DNA of 64,000 nucleotides from Kordia sp. (GTDB lineage Bacteria > Bacteroidota > Bacteroidia > Flavobacteriales > Flavobacteriaceae). The stretch covers positions 64,001 to 128,000 of the forward strand of contig NVVR01000002.1 in assembly GCA_002733415.1 (NCBI GenBank), written 5' to 3'. Numbering within the stretch: the stretch's first letter is position 1; the number at the start of each line of letters is the position of its first letter. A model generated the notes under the pieces. That model saw nothing but the letters and a program-made list of their open reading frames with translations. It ran no database searches and was not told the origin of the DNA. The position numbers and the translations under genes are program-made. Shown piece after piece: positions 10,218 to 16,208 of the stretch.

Positions 10218-11378
10218 ATGTTTCCTAAAAAACTACAACATAAACTGCAACGACGAATAGAAAACAATAGCTTTCGAAAGTTATCGCCTCAAAATGAATT
10301 GGTAGATTTTTCTTCTAATGATTATCTTGGGTTTTCAAAATCCAAAACTATTTTCAATAAATCACATCAGTATCTAGTTGAGTATGGGTATACGTTAAAT
10401 GGCGTGTCTGGTTCCCGATTGTTATGCGGGAATCATGAATTGTATACTATAGTTGAGGAGCAATTAATAAACATTCATCAGTCAGAAGTATTGATTTTCA
10501 ATTCCGGGTATGACGCCAATATTGGTTTTTTTAGTGCAGTGCCACAACGTAATGATGTGATATTATACGATGAGTATTCACATGCTTCAATACGCGATGG
10601 TATAAAGTTGTCAAATGCCAAAGCGTATTCATTTAAACATAATGATTTAGCTGATTTAGAAAGAAGGCTATCGTCAATTCGAGCGCAGTCGAGAACTAAA
10701 GATGATGAAGTATATGTGGTTACGGAATCTGTTTTTTCAATGGATGGTGATTCACCAGATTTAGTTGAAATGCAAAACCTGTGTAAAGAATACAAAGCGC
10801 ATTTAATAGTTGATGAAGCACATGCGGTTGGAGTATTTGGTTTCGGTTTGGTTCATCAATTAGGTTTGGAAATAGAGGTGTTTGCTAGAATTGTAACTTT
10901 CGGGAAAGCCATGGGTTGTCATGGGGCAGCAATTTTAGGGAGTGAACAATTAAAAGACTATCTCATAAATTTTTCACGCTCATTTATATATACCACTGGT
11001 TTGTCGCCACATTCGTTAGCAACAATTCATATGGCTTATGAGGAACTTCTTATAACGAATGCAAACGCTAAATCTCACTCGGTTGTTCAACAACTAAAGG
11101 AGAATATTAAGTATTTCAAAGCTAAATATGCATCATTGCAATTACGTGATTCGTTTATTAATAGTGACTCCGCCATACAATGTTGTGTCATTTCAGGTAA
11201 TTCAATCGTTAAAAAATGTGCGAAAGTATTACAGGGACAAGGATTTGATGTGCGTCCAATATTGTCACCTACGGTTTCTGAAGGGCAAGAGCGTTTGCGT
11301 TTTTGTTTACATTCGTATAATACAACACAACAAATTGATGAAGTATTGAATTTGCTTAGTACATTTGTACGTGATTAG
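10218..11378 (+). CDS. bioF: 8-amino-7-oxononanoate synthase
   Basis: PLP enzyme condensing pimeloyl-ACP (or -CoA) with alanine, the first step of the biotin ring pathway. DFSSNDYLGFS near the N-terminus, VDEAHAVGVFG (about residues 198-208, with the PLP-contacting Asp and His) and TFGKAMGCHGAAILG (the Schiff-base Lys at about 230) are the expected landmarks of an alpha-oxoamine synthase. Length of 386 is normal. It opens the operon bioF-DUF2007-bioD-bioA-ketosynthase. Confidence 0.96.
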   Translation: MFPKKLQHKLQRRIENNSFRKLSPQNELVDFSSNDYLGFSKSKTIFNKSHQYLVEYGYTLNGVSGSRLLCGNHELYTIVEEQLINIHQSEVLIFNSGYDANIGFFSAVPQRNDVILYDEYSHASIRDGIKLSNAKAYSFKHNDLADLERRLSSIRAQSRTKDDEVYVVTESVFSMDGDSPDLVEMQNLCKEYKAHLIVDEAHAVGVFGFGLVHQLGLEIEVFARIVTFGKAMGCHGAAILGSEQLKDYLINFSRSFIYTTGLSPHSLATIHMAYEELLITNANAKSHSVVQQLKENIKYFKAKYASLQLRDSFINSDSAIQCCVISGNSIVKKCAKVLQGQGFDVRPILSPTVSEGQERLRFCLHSYNTTQQIDEVLNLLSTFVRD

Positions 11379-11406
11379 TTTTTGAAAACTAGTTAAAAAC
11401 AAGTAT

Positions 11407-11790
11407 ATGAAAAATAGTTTCACAATAATTGCAGTATTTCAGTATTCGTCAGAAGCATTAATTATAAAAGGCAAATTAGAATCTGAAGGGATCACCGTTT
11501 TTTTAGCTGATGAATATACGGTTGACACTGATCCTCTAGTAAGTAATGCTATTGGCGGGGTAAAGCTTCAAGTGTACACCGAACAGGCAGAAGTTGCTAA
11601 AAATATTATTAGAACTATTGATCCAAGCTTATTAAAAGAGCCAGTTTTATGTTCTAATTGTAAATCTTCGAACTTTAGTTTAAAGATGAATGCCAAGAAT
11701 TTATTCCTAAAGTTAATTCCAATAGACGGAAAGTTTGAATACAATTGTAGAGATTGTAATACTAATTTTAAAGCAGTAGAAGCTTTATGA
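11407..11790 (+). CDS. DUF2007-type protein with a C-terminal zinc-ribbon-like end
   Basis: 127 residues. The N-terminal 75 have the DUF2007 pattern (IIAVFQYSSEALIIKGKLESEGITVFLADE, then GGVKLQVY), a small ferredoxin-like fold annotated as putative signal transducing. The C-terminus carries CSNC and CRDC pairs about 30 residues apart, suggesting a bound zinc. It overlaps bioD by 4 bases (ATGA), so translation is coupled to the biotin genes, but no biotin role is established for the family. Confidence 0.8.
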   Translation: MKNSFTIIAVFQYSSEALIIKGKLESEGITVFLADEYTVDTDPLVSNAIGGVKLQVYTEQAEVAKNIIRTIDPSLLKEPVLCSNCKSSNFSLKMNAKNLFLKLIPIDGKFEYNCRDCNTNFKAVEAL

Positions 11791-12398
11791 GTATGAAATT
11801 ATTTATAACTGGTATCGGTACTGATGTAGGTAAAACAATTGTTTCAGCAATATTGACGGAAGCTTTGGAAGCTGATTACTGGAAGCCAATTCAAGCTGGA
11901 GAGTTAGCAAGAGGTGATTCACACACAGTAGCGAGTTTAATATCCAATTCAAAAACAATCATTCATCCAAATGCATATGCGTTAAATACTCCTATGAGTC
12001 CACATGCAGCAGCAGCAATTGATGGAGTTGTGGTTGATTTAAAGAAAATTCTAGTACCGATTACTAAAAACAATTTAGTAATTGAAGGAGCTGGAGGGAT
12101 ATTGGTTCCGTTAAATGATTCGGAAACGATACTAGATTTAATTCAGCTAGATTATAAAGTAATTGTTGTGTCGCGTCATTATTTAGGAAGTATCAATCAT
12201 ACATTAATGACCATACAGTTATTGCAACAAAAAGGATTTAATGTTTCGATACTATTTAATGGCAAGGAAAATAAGACTACAGAAAGTATTATTGAAAAAA
12301 TGACAGGAGTAACTGTTTTAGGGCGTATTGATGACGAGCTTTATTTTGATAAGAATGTTGTCAAGGAGTATGCAGATAAATTTAAAGATGTGTTATAA
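11787..12398 (+). CDS. bioD: ATP-dependent dethiobiotin synthetase
   Basis: Closes the ureido ring of dethiobiotin from diaminopelargonate, CO2 and ATP. The P-loop GTDVGKT is at residues 11-17, YWKPIQAG follows, and IEGAGGILVPL is the second conserved signature. 203 residues is usual for Bacteroidota BioD. Start overlaps the stop of the previous gene by 4 bases. bioA follows by 14 bases. Confidence 0.95.
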   Translation: MSMKLFITGIGTDVGKTIVSAILTEALEADYWKPIQAGELARGDSHTVASLISNSKTIIHPNAYALNTPMSPHAAAAIDGVVVDLKKILVPITKNNLVIEGAGGILVPLNDSETILDLIQLDYKVIVVSRHYLGSINHTLMTIQLLQQKGFNVSILFNGKENKTTESIIEKMTGVTVLGRIDDELYFDKNVVKEYADKFKDVL

Positions 12399-12412
12399 AA
12401 TAAAAGGACCAC

Positions 12413-13696
12413 ATGGGAAAAAATAAAGAGAATAGCCTCCAAGAAAGAGATAAAAAACACATTTGGCATCCGCTAAAACAACATCAGTTACATCCAAATA
12501 GTTTGGCAATAGTGAAAGCTAAAGGATGTGTATTGACTGATGATAAAGGTAATGAGTATATCGATGCAATAGCATCATGGTACACGTGTATGTTCGGACA
12601 TTGCAACGATTTTATTACGAGTAGGGTTTCGGACCAAATGAAGCAACTGGATCAGGTAATGTTTAGTGACTTTACACATGAGCCGGCAGTAAAACTTTCT
12701 GAGGAGTTAATTAAAATTCTTCCAGATAATCAGAATAAAATATTTTTTTCTGAAAACGGATCTACAAGTGTGGAGGTTGGTATCAAAATGGCTTTACAGT
12801 ATCATTTTAATATAGGAGAAAAACGAGATACATTTATTGCTTTTGAAAATGGATTTCATGGAGATACATTTGGAGCAATGGCGGTTTCTGGTTTATCGGT
12901 TTATAATGGGCCGTTTGAAGATTTCTTGATGGATATCAAGCGTATTCCAACACCTGATGGAAATAATACACAGGCTATACTTGAGCAATTAAAAGAAATA
13001 GTTACGAATAACAAAGTAGCAGGATTTGTATATGAGCCATTAGTGCAAGGTGCAGCAGGAATGAAAATTCATGATGCTGTAGGTTTAGGAGAAATTTTAA
13101 AATTCTGTAAAGAAAATACTATTCTGACTATTGCTGATGAAGTAATGACTGGATTTGGGAAAACAGGTAAACATTTTGCTTCTGATTATATTGAAACAAA
13201 ACCTGATATTCTCTGTTTGAGTAAAGCCTTAACTGCTGGGTTGATGCCAATGGCTATTACGTCATGTACACAAAATATTTATGATGCTTTTTTGAGTAAT
13301 GATATTAGTAAGGGGATGTTTCATTGTCATACTTATTGTGCAAATCCATTAGCTTGTACCGCTGCTTTAGCGAGTATTGAATTATTACAGACAGCCAAAA
13401 TTCAAGGTAGTATTCAAGAAATTATTGCGTCACATAAAGTGTTTAATGTGCGTATTAAAAATCATCCGAAAGTAAAATCTACTCGACAATTAGGAGTCAT
13501 TTATGCTTTAGATTTAAATACTGAAATGGAGCGCTATGGAAGTCTTCGTGATAAGTTATTAAAGTTTTTTATGAATCATGGAGTGTTTTTAAGACCTTTA
13601 GGGAATACAATATACATACAAGTGCCTTATGTAATTACAAAAGAACAATTGCAAAAAGTGTATAAAACTATTGAAGAGGCGTTGGAAATAGTGTAA
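12413..13696 (+). CDS. bioA: Adenosylmethionine--8-amino-7-oxononanoate aminotransferase
   Basis: Transfers an amino group to 8-amino-7-oxononanoate, giving diaminopelargonate. It is a class III PLP aminotransferase: HIWHPLKQH at the N-terminus is typical of BioA, IADEVMTGFGKTG carries the PLP-pairing Asp, and LCLSKALTAGLMP carries the Schiff-base Lys. Length 427. A run AAAAGGACCAC before the ATG offers a weak ribosome binding site. The ketosynthase gene follows at once. Confidence 0.95.
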   Translation: MGKNKENSLQERDKKHIWHPLKQHQLHPNSLAIVKAKGCVLTDDKGNEYIDAIASWYTCMFGHCNDFITSRVSDQMKQLDQVMFSDFTHEPAVKLSEELIKILPDNQNKIFFSENGSTSVEVGIKMALQYHFNIGEKRDTFIAFENGFHGDTFGAMAVSGLSVYNGPFEDFLMDIKRIPTPDGNNTQAILEQLKEIVTNNKVAGFVYEPLVQGAAGMKIHDAVGLGEILKFCKENTILTIADEVMTGFGKTGKHFASDYIETKPDILCLSKALTAGLMPMAITSCTQNIYDAFLSNDISKGMFHCHTYCANPLACTAALASIELLQTAKIQGSIQEIIASHKVFNVRIKNHPKVKSTRQLGVIYALDLNTEMERYGSLRDKLLKFFMNHGVFLRPLGNTIYIQVPYVITKEQLQKVYKTIEEALEIV

Positions 13697-13728
13697 ATTT
13701 GCTCTCTTTAAAAGGTATAAAACCAATA

Positions 13729-14907
13729 ATGAAATCACCAGTTTCTATAACAGCACTAGCGTCCCTTTCGGCTCTTGGGAGTAACTCAAAGCAAATTTGG
13801 GAGAACTATCAAAATGAAGACCATTTTATTTCTGAAAAGGAATTTAAAAGCTTTTCAGCACTAGTGGCTCAAATTTCTGAAGAAGATAAAATTGCAATAC
13901 AAGAATTAAGAACATCGGATTCTAAATATGTGAATCTGGATCATTCGGTACTGTATTGTATGTATGTTTCTAGAAAAGCAGTAAAAGATGCTGGATGGAA
14001 GTCATCTGATAATTTCGGAATTAATATAGGTTCTTCCAGAGGAGCAACATCATTATTTGAAAAGTATCATAAAGCCTTTTTAGAAAGTAATGTAGCAGAA
14101 ACATTAAGTTCTCCAACAACAACTCTAGGAAATATTTCTTCATGGACCGCGCATGATTTACAGACGGATGGGCCGGAAATTTCACATTCTATTGCATGTT
14201 CAACAGGTTTGCATGCGTTGTTGAATGGAGTAGTTTGGGTGCTTTCAGGTATGGCTAATAAGTTTTTAGTTGGTGGTAGTGAAGCAGCGTTAACGGGTTT
14301 TACAATTGCCCAAATGAAGGCGTTAAAAATATATGCAAAAAATGACAGAAATCACTCTGAGTTTGTCGAAGAGTCATATCCATGTCAAGCATTAAATCTT
14401 AATAAAAAACAGAATACGATGGTGCTCGGTGAAGGGGCAGCTGTACTATGTTTGGAAAAAGGAGTAAAAAAAAATGCTTTAGCAGTTATCAGTGGGGTGG
14501 GGTATGCTACAGAAATATTAGAACATAATGTTTCTATCTCTACAGAAGCAACATGTTTTCAAAAGTCAATGAAAATGGCTTTGGGAGAAATGAATCCAAA
14601 TGAAATTGATGCTATAGTAATGCATGCTCCAGGAACTATTAAAGGAGATTTATCGGAAGTAAAGGCTATAGAAAAAGTTTTCGGGAAGGATGTGCCGTTT
14701 TTAACTACTAATAAATGGAAGTTAGGGCATACGTTCGCCACATCAGGATTATTAAGTATTGAGTTAGCGGTTTTAATGTTGCAACATCAGCAAGTAGTTT
14801 CGGTTCCTTTTATAAAACCACAGAGGAAGCCAAAACAACTAAAAAATATAGTAGTGAATGCTGTAGGTTTTGGAGGGAATGCTGTAAGTGTATTATTAAC
14901 AAAATAA
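13729..14907 (+). CDS. Beta-ketoacyl synthase of the biotin operon
   Basis: A 392-residue KAS I/II-type condensing enzyme. The thiolase-fold triad is intact: Cys157 in SIACSTG, His299 in MHAPGT (usually HGTGT) and His334 in KLGHTFATSG. It is shorter and more divergent than housekeeping FabF. The first ATG (13729) begins MKSPVSITALASLSALG; a TTG at 13699, only 2 bases after the bioA stop, would add ten residues and is less likely. Its place as the last gene of bioF-bioD-bioA suggests a role in making the pimeloyl chain, which is inference; no bioC, bioH, bioW or bioI is present here. Confidence 0.88.
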   Translation: MKSPVSITALASLSALGSNSKQIWENYQNEDHFISEKEFKSFSALVAQISEEDKIAIQELRTSDSKYVNLDHSVLYCMYVSRKAVKDAGWKSSDNFGINIGSSRGATSLFEKYHKAFLESNVAETLSSPTTTLGNISSWTAHDLQTDGPEISHSIACSTGLHALLNGVVWVLSGMANKFLVGGSEAALTGFTIAQMKALKIYAKNDRNHSEFVEESYPCQALNLNKKQNTMVLGEGAAVLCLEKGVKKNALAVISGVGYATEILEHNVSISTEATCFQKSMKMALGEMNPNEIDAIVMHAPGTIKGDLSEVKAIEKVFGKDVPFLTTNKWKLGHTFATSGLLSIELAVLMLQHQQVVSVPFIKPQRKPKQLKNIVVNAVGFGGNAVSVLLTK

Positions 14908-15005
14908 TATGGGTATCAATATATAATCCCCGTAGGCTTGTTTTTAACGAAAAAGTTATTTGTTAATTCATACCTAGTGTGCTTGCACCGAGGATATTGA
15001 TTTAG

Positions 15006-15113
15006 TATTTTTGAAAATTAAAATAACTCACCTTTTTTTGGTGGGAATAATAATATTTTTATTGAGGAATTGCCTCAATAAGTAACTCCCATTAAGGGAC
15101 TAACTCGGATTTT
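15006..15113 (+). promoter_or_regulatory. bioB promoter and structured leader
   Basis: TATTTTTG at 15006-15013 is a good -7 element. The predicted leader of about 95 bases contains short hairpins: CACC-T7-GGTG, and TTGAGG-aattg-CCTCAA at 15063-15080. Upstream, ATCAATAT near 14916 and ATATTGAT near 14994 could pair over the whole gap. No known riboswitch fold is recognised. bioB therefore seems to have control separate from the rest of the biotin genes. Confidence 0.45.
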
Positions 15114-16208
15114 ATGAGCGAAGTAAGACATAACTGGACGAAGGAAGAAATTCTAGAAGTATATAACAGACCAATGATGGATTTGCTGTATGATGCAGCA
15201 ACCATTCATAGAAAACAACATGATCCTAATGTTGTACAAGTATCTACACTACTTTCAATTAAAACTGGAGGATGCTCGGAAGATTGCGGGTATTGCCCGC
15301 AAGCTGCACGTTATCATACAGGTGTTGAAGGGAATGATTTAATGACGGTAAACCAAGTAAAAGCGCAAGCGCTCAGAGCAAGAGAAAGCGGAAGTTCTCG
15401 TGTATGTATGGGAGCTGCTTGGAGAAATGTGAAAGACGGTCCGGAGTTTGATCAAGTATTAGAAATGGTACGTGGTATTAATAAGTTGGATATGGAGGTT
15501 TGTTGTACTTTAGGTATGATAACTGAAAACCAAGCACAACGTTTAGCAGAAGCAGGTTTATATGCGTACAATCATAACTTAGATTCATCAGAAGAGTATT
15601 ACAAAAAAGTAATTTCTACAAGAGGATATCAAGATAGATTGGATACTATTAGCAATGTGCGTAAAACAAATGTGACAGTTTGTTCAGGAGGAATTATCGG
15701 AATGGGAGAAAATATTGAAGATAGAGCTGGGATGTTAGTGGCGCTTTCTACGTTGAATCCACAACCAGAATCTACGCCTATTAACGCATTAGTCGCTGTT
15801 GAGGGGACTCCTTTAGAAGATGAAAAGCCAGTTGAAATTTGGGATATGATTCGTATGGTAGCAACTACCCGTATTGTATTGCCGGAAACTCAAGTGCGTT
15901 TGTCTGCCGGAAGAACTCAAATGAGTAGAGAAGGGCAATCAATGTGTTTCTTTGCTGGAGCAAATTCTATTTTCGCAGGAGATAAGTTATTAACTACTCC
16001 AAATCCTGATGTAAATGAGGATATGAAAATGTTTGAATTATTAGGATTGAAACCGCAAAAAGCATTTACTAAAAAGGTACAACCGCAAACGGTTGAGGCT
16101 GCTGATTCTCAGTTCGAAACATTAGGAGAGAAGCCAAAATGGACCAGACCAGATCATAAAATTGATAGAAATGAAGCTGCAAAAGCTAAAGGAAAATTAG
16201 TAAAATAA
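15114..16208 (+). CDS. bioB: Biotin synthase
   Basis: Radical SAM enzyme inserting sulphur into dethiobiotin. The [4Fe-4S] cluster motif CxxxCxxC is GCSEDCGYCPQ with Cys54, Cys58 and Cys61. YNHNLDSSEEYY and SAGRTQMSREGQSMCFFAGANSIFAGDKLLTT, with the [2Fe-2S] ligand region, are highly typical. Length 364, with a lysine-rich tail of about 40 residues beyond the barrel. It completes the pathway begun by bioF, bioA and bioD upstream. Confidence 0.97.
   Translation: MSEVRHNWTKEEILEVYNRPMMDLLYDAATIHRKQHDPNVVQVSTLLSIKTGGCSEDCGYCPQAARYHTGVEGNDLMTVNQVKAQALRARESGSSRVCMGAAWRNVKDGPEFDQVLEMVRGINKLDMEVCCTLGMITENQAQRLAEAGLYAYNHNLDSSEEYYKKVISTRGYQDRLDTISNVRKTNVTVCSGGIIGMGENIEDRAGMLVALSTLNPQPESTPINALVAVEGTPLEDEKPVEIWDMIRMVATTRIVLPETQVRLSAGRTQMSREGQSMCFFAGANSIFAGDKLLTTPNPDVNEDMKMFELLGLKPQKAFTKKVQPQTVEAADSQFETLGEKPKWTRPDHKIDRNEAAKAKGKLVK

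Follow-up and report, generated by a model that had tools for sequence, protein, structure and literature searches.

The window, by which we mean the whole 64,000-nucleotide stretch of Kordia sp. DNA analysed here, carries a cluster of biotin genes that runs from 10218 to 16208, entirely on the + strand, in the order bioF, DUF2007-like gene, bioD, bioA, KAS, bioB. The bioF gene (10218..11378, +), encoding 8-amino-7-oxononanoate synthase, was assigned from its match to TIGR00858, the top of 15 families at 321.6 bits (below the cut-off of 426), and its position is conserved across the KAS regions compared. The BioF step is the consumer of the pimeloyl thioester. The genes for dethiobiotin synthase (bioD, 11787..12398, +), DAPA aminotransferase (bioA, 12413..13696, +) and biotin synthase (bioB, 15114..16208, +) match TIGR00347, TIGR00508 and TIGR00433 with 116, 531 and 394 bits versus cut-offs of 83, 405 and 225, respectively. 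The DUF2007-like gene (11407..11790, +) lies inside the cluster, between bioF and bioD. It matches PF09413 at 20.4 bits, below the cut-off of 25.7, and its NCBIfam match is also below cut-off; tblastn picked up a relative at 48 of the 80 named KAS loci, which are the 80 top-ranked among 541 confirmed stretches.

The KAS gene itself (13729..14907, +) encodes a FabF-type condensing enzyme of 392 aa. It begins with the ATG at 13729 and its stop codon ends at 14907; an ORF listing begins it upstream of this ATG, at the TTG at 13699. The initial annotation described KAS as closing bioF-bioD-bioA. All three genes do lie upstream, but KAS is not the end of the cluster, since bioB starts downstream after a spacer of 206 bases. 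The accompanying remark that no known gene of a pimeloyl route lies nearby agrees with our scan of the cluster genes against family profiles, in which neither BioC nor BioW was matched.

The sequence TAAATTTG at 13694-13701, which begins within the bioA stop codon, fits what we take to be the Bacteroidota -7 promoter consensus, TAnnTTTG; it may be an internal KAS promoter or a chance occurrence in AT-rich DNA. A bioB operator at 15059-15081, where the KAS-bioB spacer contains a perfect 9-bp inverted repeat, was considered and rejected: the repeat is single in the window, and the operator reading also fails on conservation, as only 5 of the 33 named loci that have bioB within 1.5 kb downstream contain any perfect repeat of at least 8 bases in this spacer. 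Sigma-70-like sites in the window number 25, against a shuffle mean of 31.7, and so show no excess; the 5 terminator-like sites (shuffle mean 2.7, sd 1.6) were not used as evidence.

KAS Is a Divergent Relative of FabF with a Complete Catalytic Set

KAS contains both ketoacyl-synthase halves, PF00109 and PF02801 (71.7 and 56.5 bits), and its top NCBIfam match is the fabF equivalog, TIGR03150. The score of 126 bits falls far below the cut-off of 494, and for this reason the protein was rightly called divergent. The ACP_syn_III domain has no match in the window KAS and is touched by 2 of 25 orthologs, at best with 5.7e-4.

The catalytic triad had been reported as intact, and all three codons can indeed be read from the DNA. 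The nucleophile Cys157 (14197..14199, +) aligns with E. coli FabF Cys163, His299 (14623..14625, +) with His303, and His334 (14728..14730, +) with His340; the active-site lysine, Lys329 (14713..14715, +), is present too and aligns with Lys335 of FabF. Each of these four residues is found in 84 of 84 orthologs, rows that were drawn from two collections and in which the same species may be present twice. One alignment holds 25 of the 31 KAS proteins described below (that of the window and 24 others, two of them start-trimmed), and a second holds the window protein together with those from 55 of the 80 named loci.

An AlphaFold model of KAS has a mean pLDDT of 86.9 and a pTM of 0.89, and the closest PDB folds are FabF structures, with a TM of about 0.86. 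The model is weak at the pocket, where the means of 10-residue blocks are 58-73 for residues 101-140 and 63 for residues 151-160. In a tree of 46 rows, which includes 23 of the 84 KAS rows, KAS forms a single clade separate from FabF and FabB with a support of 100/100; the KAS rows L214, L213, L066 and L212 are long-branched, and their joins may be false.

An Invariant Arginine Aligns with the Gate of the FabF Acyl Pocket

The acyl-pocket gating residues of FabF are given as Ile108 and Phe202 (PMC7138838). We aligned the E. coli FabF residues from the gene sequence; the literature numbering omits Met1. At the place of Ile108, KAS has an arginine, Arg104 (codon 14038..14040, +), and this residue is invariant in the alignment of orthologs (84/84). 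We compared this column in 19 flavobacterial FabF proteins, of which 15 come from genomes that also carry KAS; it holds Ile 17 times, Val once and Asp once. Arg was found there in none of 23 other ketosynthases aligned, comprising these 19, E. coli FabF and FabB (the latter gapped at this column) and two others of the host genome. A single same-strand gene run elsewhere in that genome (L216, G000:C5:36000-55000), perhaps an aryl-polyene or flexirubin-type cluster, contains two ketosynthases besides KAS, which have Ser and Val in the Arg104 column.

The remaining pocket positions have also changed. The FabF Leu111 column (Thr107 in KAS) is Thr in 83 orthologs and Ser in 1, the Phe133 column is Ser in 43, Ala in 19 and Thr in 15, and the Val134 column (Ser128) is Ser in 84 of 84. 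The Gly201 column (Gln195) holds Gln in 83 of 84, and the second gating position, Phe202 (Met196), holds Met in 79 of 84. As read from the alignment, the greasy pocket of FabF is turned more polar in KAS and carries one fixed positive charge, a combination that would suit a primer bearing a free carboxylate. Arg104 was placed by alignment, given the low confidence of the AlphaFold model over residues 101-140 and 151-160. A parallel to this polar pocket is the set of Ser84, Arg147 and Ser287 in BioZ, which docking positions close to the free carboxyl (PMC8024396). The Arg147Ala mutant of BioZ is reported to retain partial activity (PMC8024396), which makes it a weak precedent for an essential arginine.

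KAS Orthologs Are Linked to Biotin Genes

Of 146 Flavobacteriales genomes searched, 31 contain a KAS ortholog; one of these is the window's own genome, and the orthologs in the others have 39-68% identity to the window KAS. The search yielded two distinct classes, orthologs with E of 5.6e-65 or lower and FabF-like proteins with E of 5.5e-27 or weaker; the latter class was excluded from the count, and G039, which has two copies, contributed one. These genome searches scored limited candidates per genome (e.g., 7, 10 or up to 17, depending on the search), and misses are possible.

Among 30 regions fetched from the other Flavobacteriales genomes, 28 have a bio gene near KAS, the exceptions being L059 and L065. 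KAS adjoins bioB in G009, G014, G024, G034 and G039 even though bioF, bioD and bioA are located elsewhere in these genomes. The named loci, which come from Flavobacterium, Zobellia, Maribacter, Tenacibaculum, Polaribacter, Kordia and other genera, give a similar picture: in the 80 that ranked highest out of 541 confirmed stretches, a bio gene always lies no more than 9 kb from KAS (80 of 80), the next of nine markers upstream is bioA in 75, and the next downstream is bioB on the same strand in 61. Outside Flavobacteriales, bio genes are found near 4 of 4 distant orthologs (L211-L214, 34-44% identity).

No non-bio gene is common to all KAS regions, while recX, the ATP synthase beta subunit, DUF2007 and others recur in part. 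Genes located between bioF and bioD in several relatives were first taken as partners, a reading that was dropped; they look like an RNA-polymerase sigma factor, a membrane protein and an exported protein, labels that were assigned by eye.

KAS Co-Occurs with bioA but Not with BioC or BioE-Like Genes in Flavobacteriales

A bioA gene scoring over the TIGR00508 cut-off is present in 46 of the 146 Flavobacteriales genomes. These 46 include every one of the 31 KAS genomes, and KAS was found in none of the 100 genomes that lack bioA. Fisher's test gives 1e-20 for this association, and such values overstate independence because the sampled genomes share ancestry: 18 of the 31 KAS genomes belong to one family, and the 14 BioE-like genomes introduced below to one genus. 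The 46 bioA genomes divide, with zero overlap, into 31 with KAS, 14 with a BioE-like gene and 1 with BioC and BioG.

In the 14 BioE-like genomes, all of genus g15, a protein of about 207 aa precedes bioF. A search with this protein matches exactly those 14 of the 146 genomes and none of the 31 KAS genomes. It has no match in Pfam, so the BioE label rests on its size, its place and its MocR-like neighbour. A MocR-like regulator is divergent from bioE-bioF-bioD-bioB-bioA in all 14 regions (L099-L101, L103-L113), an arrangement that resembles the BioE-BioL module described in Elizabethkingia (PMC12915131), the MocR-like regulator being compared with BioL. In the fifteenth non-KAS bioA genome, G030, BioG (124 bits) and BioC (158 bits) adjoin bioF. 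BioW was found in 0 of the 146 genomes by a search whose control was positive in B. subtilis and M. jannaschii.

The Same Pattern in a Sample of the Phylum

A sample of 247 genomes from the phylum contains 21 genomes with KAS, 83 with BioC and 7 with a BioE-like gene, and no genome has two of the three. The 21 exclude G066, whose match is FabF-like (173 bits). BioC was called at E of 1e-27 or lower, which gives the 83 genomes and includes one doubtful case, G332 (99 bits); bioA was called at E of 1e-90 or lower, which gives 124 genomes, 120 of them above the curated cut-off. By these calls bioA accompanies KAS in 21 of 21 genomes (Fisher, 4e-7, for related genomes) and BioC in 74 of 83.

At the thresholds used here, 22 of the 124 bioA genomes have neither KAS nor BioC nor a BioE-like gene; four of them (G295, G329, G336 and G362) are below the bioA cut-off. 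The bioA regions of 20 of these 22 genomes (L248-L267) include some, L250 and L251 among them, with bioB-bioF-bioD-bioA clusters. A missing known route therefore does not by itself implicate KAS, and these genomes suggest that further pimelate routes, or divergent members, are still to be discovered.

The Window Assembly Contains No BioC above Cut-Off

For BioC and BioW, what the initial annotation had observed in the neighbourhood of KAS also applies to the assembly as a whole (3.72 Mb in 97 contigs, 90% complete): the BioC profile gives 15 weak matches, the best at 63 bits against a cut-off of 185, and the BioW profile gives no match. The two best BioC candidates were scanned against other families. 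The 60-bit candidate is UbiE/MenG (252 bits). The 63-bit candidate is a generic methyltransferase that fits only positions 24-181 of 244; its top family is still BioC, at one third of the cut-off. For comparison, BioC matches in the phylum sample score 139-239 bits and are mostly full length in 82 of 83 genomes, the exception being G332 with 99 bits, whereas no KAS genome in the Flavobacteriales set scores above 76 bits for BioC (the value of G076).

Proposed Role of KAS and Source of the Primer

We propose, with a probability of roughly 0.8, that KAS builds pimeloyl-ACP for BioF from an unmasked short dicarboxylyl primer, using the general Fab enzymes. That KAS starts or extends the pimeloyl chain had been suggested when the gene was first annotated, and the suggestion is supported by the bio linkage, the co-occurrence with bioA, the mutual exclusion with BioC and BioE-like genes, and the invariant pocket arginine. 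To judge from the genomes compared, such a route is likely to operate in many biotin-producing Flavobacteriales (31 of the 46 sampled) and in some other Bacteroidota.

In the mechanism that we infer, the short dicarboxylyl primer would be loaded onto Cys157, with its free distal carboxylate paired with Arg104 in the polar acyl pocket, and His299 and His334 would drive decarboxylative condensation with malonyl-ACP. The ordinary FabG, FabZ and FabI would reduce, dehydrate and again reduce the 3-keto-dicarboxylyl-ACP so formed, and pimeloyl-ACP would then be passed to BioF. With ordinary Fab processing of an unmasked chain, neither a methyl mask (BioC) nor an esterase (BioH or BioG) would be required.

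Either glutaryl-CoA or glutaryl-ACP could serve as the primer, with a single round of the BioZ kind, or malonyl-ACP could, with two rounds via glutaryl-ACP; we lean only slightly toward the glutaryl primer. FabF-type enzymes normally use primers that are ACP-bound. This property, together with two KAS genomes in which no close glutaryl-CoA dehydrogenase was found, G009 (92% complete, best match 38%) and G134 (99% complete, best match 37%), is why both options are kept. The dehydrogenase was detected by motif or protein search in 29 of the 31 Flavobacteriales genomes with KAS, so a glutaryl-CoA pool is presumably present in these.

We had considered the same enzyme as a marker of the primer and rejected it. 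A degenerate DNA pattern for EGTxDIH, which we take to be a glutaryl-CoA dehydrogenase motif, gave 27 of 31 KAS genomes versus 0 of 14 BioE-like genomes. This contrast is an artefact, because a protein search of 17 chosen genomes found the enzyme in all 3 BioE-like genomes among them, at 72-73% identity, as well as in the KAS genomes G057 and G039. A glutaryl-CoA dehydrogenase gene is also located on the window's contig (L246:2248-3423, -), about 56 kb past the window end. The top solved structures for the enzyme of this genome are glutaryl-CoA dehydrogenases, the best being 2eba with 428 bits.

A bolder version, which we hold to be less likely than not, is that the FabF-derived KAS needs no primer other than malonyl-ACP and takes it through glutaryl to pimeloyl in two rounds, both unmasked, with the acyl-pocket arginine reading the carboxylate. 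If true, this would be a fifth pimelate route beside BioC-BioH, BioI-BioW, BioZ and BioE, one that operates without mask, esterase, oxygenase or lysine catabolism and that would be the biotin source of a large share of biotin-producing flavobacteria.

Alternative Explanations

A masked route encoded by unlinked genes could also supply pimeloyl-ACP; an unrecognised BioC-like methyltransferase and an esterase would then carry out the masking and unmasking, and KAS would merely elongate the methyl ester. Esterases of the BioH type are frequently unlinked, and the assembly contains 15 weak BioC-profile matches. However, the best scores of this genome, 63 and 60 bits, belong to a generic methyltransferase and to UbiE/MenG, and the BioC genomes of the phylum sample reach 139-239 bits (82 of 83), against 76 bits at most in Flavobacteriales genomes with KAS. 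What is more, a masked chain is uncharged and gives no reason for an invariant arginine in the acyl pocket. We regard this explanation as unlikely. Slightly less probable still is a route that cleaves a long chain, BioI- or BioE-like, with KAS tailoring or extending its product and not starting the chain. BioE shows that members of this order do use cleavage routes (PMC12915131), but the BioE-like protein is found in 0 of 31 KAS genomes and BioW in 0 of 146 genomes, and none of the genes that partly recur near KAS (recX, the ATP synthase beta subunit, DUF2007 and others) looks like a partner for such a reaction.

The FabF-like fold and catalytic residues would be expected of an ordinary FabF paralog that serves general fatty-acid synthesis and lies in the biotin cluster by chance. 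We consider this very unlikely: of the 19 genomes from which we took a separate FabF, 15 carry KAS, and 17 of these 19 FabF proteins have the gate Ile; the KAS clade is separate, and KAS is present in 0 of 100 bioA-less genomes. Finally, a neighbourhood of bioA and bioB is compatible with any biotin step, and KAS could act at the pimeloyl stage or beyond it, such as in pimeloyl transfer or channelling to BioF, and take no part in building the chain. This reading seems to us the least credible: the Cys-His-His-Lys set is complete and invariant in 84 of 84 orthologs, which indicates condensation, and searches of these genomes for BioC, BioE-like proteins and BioW yielded no alternative supplier of the pimeloyl group.

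Comparison with Known Pimeloyl Routes

If chain building by KAS is correct, the enzyme supplies the pimeloyl step of 31 of the 46 sampled bioA-bearing Flavobacteriales. All four late biotin genes were reported in 69.3% of the flavobacterial genomes examined by Wienhausen et al. (PMC9561691). For 74 gut species, spread over diverse phyla, Rodionov et al. give the pimeloyl source as unknown, and they propose enzymes that have yet to be characterised (PMC6593275). Among the open-access papers on biotin listed in our literature searches, no description of KAS was found.

KAS shares with FabF (KAS II) the fold, both Pfam domains and the Cys-His-His-Lys set, and differs from it in scoring below the equivalog cut-off, in the Arg that replaces the gate Ile108, in the polar pocket and in its separate clade. 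The route through BioC with BioH or BioG likewise makes pimeloyl-ACP by way of malonyl-ACP and the Fab enzymes, but there the carboxyl is masked as a methyl ester, and no BioC was found in the KAS genomes of the two samples. The BioE-BioL diiron oxygenase route occupies the same pimeloyl-supply slot in other members of the order (PMC12915131); it uses an unrelated protein that cleaves a long acyl chain, and a BioE-like gene was found in no KAS genome of the two samples.

The closest functional parallel is the alphaproteobacterial BioZ, which condenses glutaryl-CoA with malonyl-ACP (PMC7645780). Both are dedicated bio-cluster ketosynthases that replace BioC-BioH, with pimeloyl-ACP as the product, shown for BioZ and proposed for KAS. 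The KAS gene, too, sits in the biotin cluster, in genomes in which no BioC was found, and in the BioZ primer tunnel the residues proposed to neutralise charge also include an arginine (PMC8024396). Hu and Cronan describe bioZ, of the fabH-like type, in two thermophiles, one of them termed an atypical Bacteroidetes. BioZ, however, belongs to FabH (KAS III) and has a Cys-His-Asn triad, whereas KAS belongs to the FabF branch with Cys-His-His, and its arginine occupies the FabF Ile108 gate position. KAS is therefore likely to be BioZ-like in function without being a BioZ, as family and triad are different. If this comparison holds, the unmasked-dicarboxylate solution arose twice, from FabH in BioZ and from FabF in KAS.
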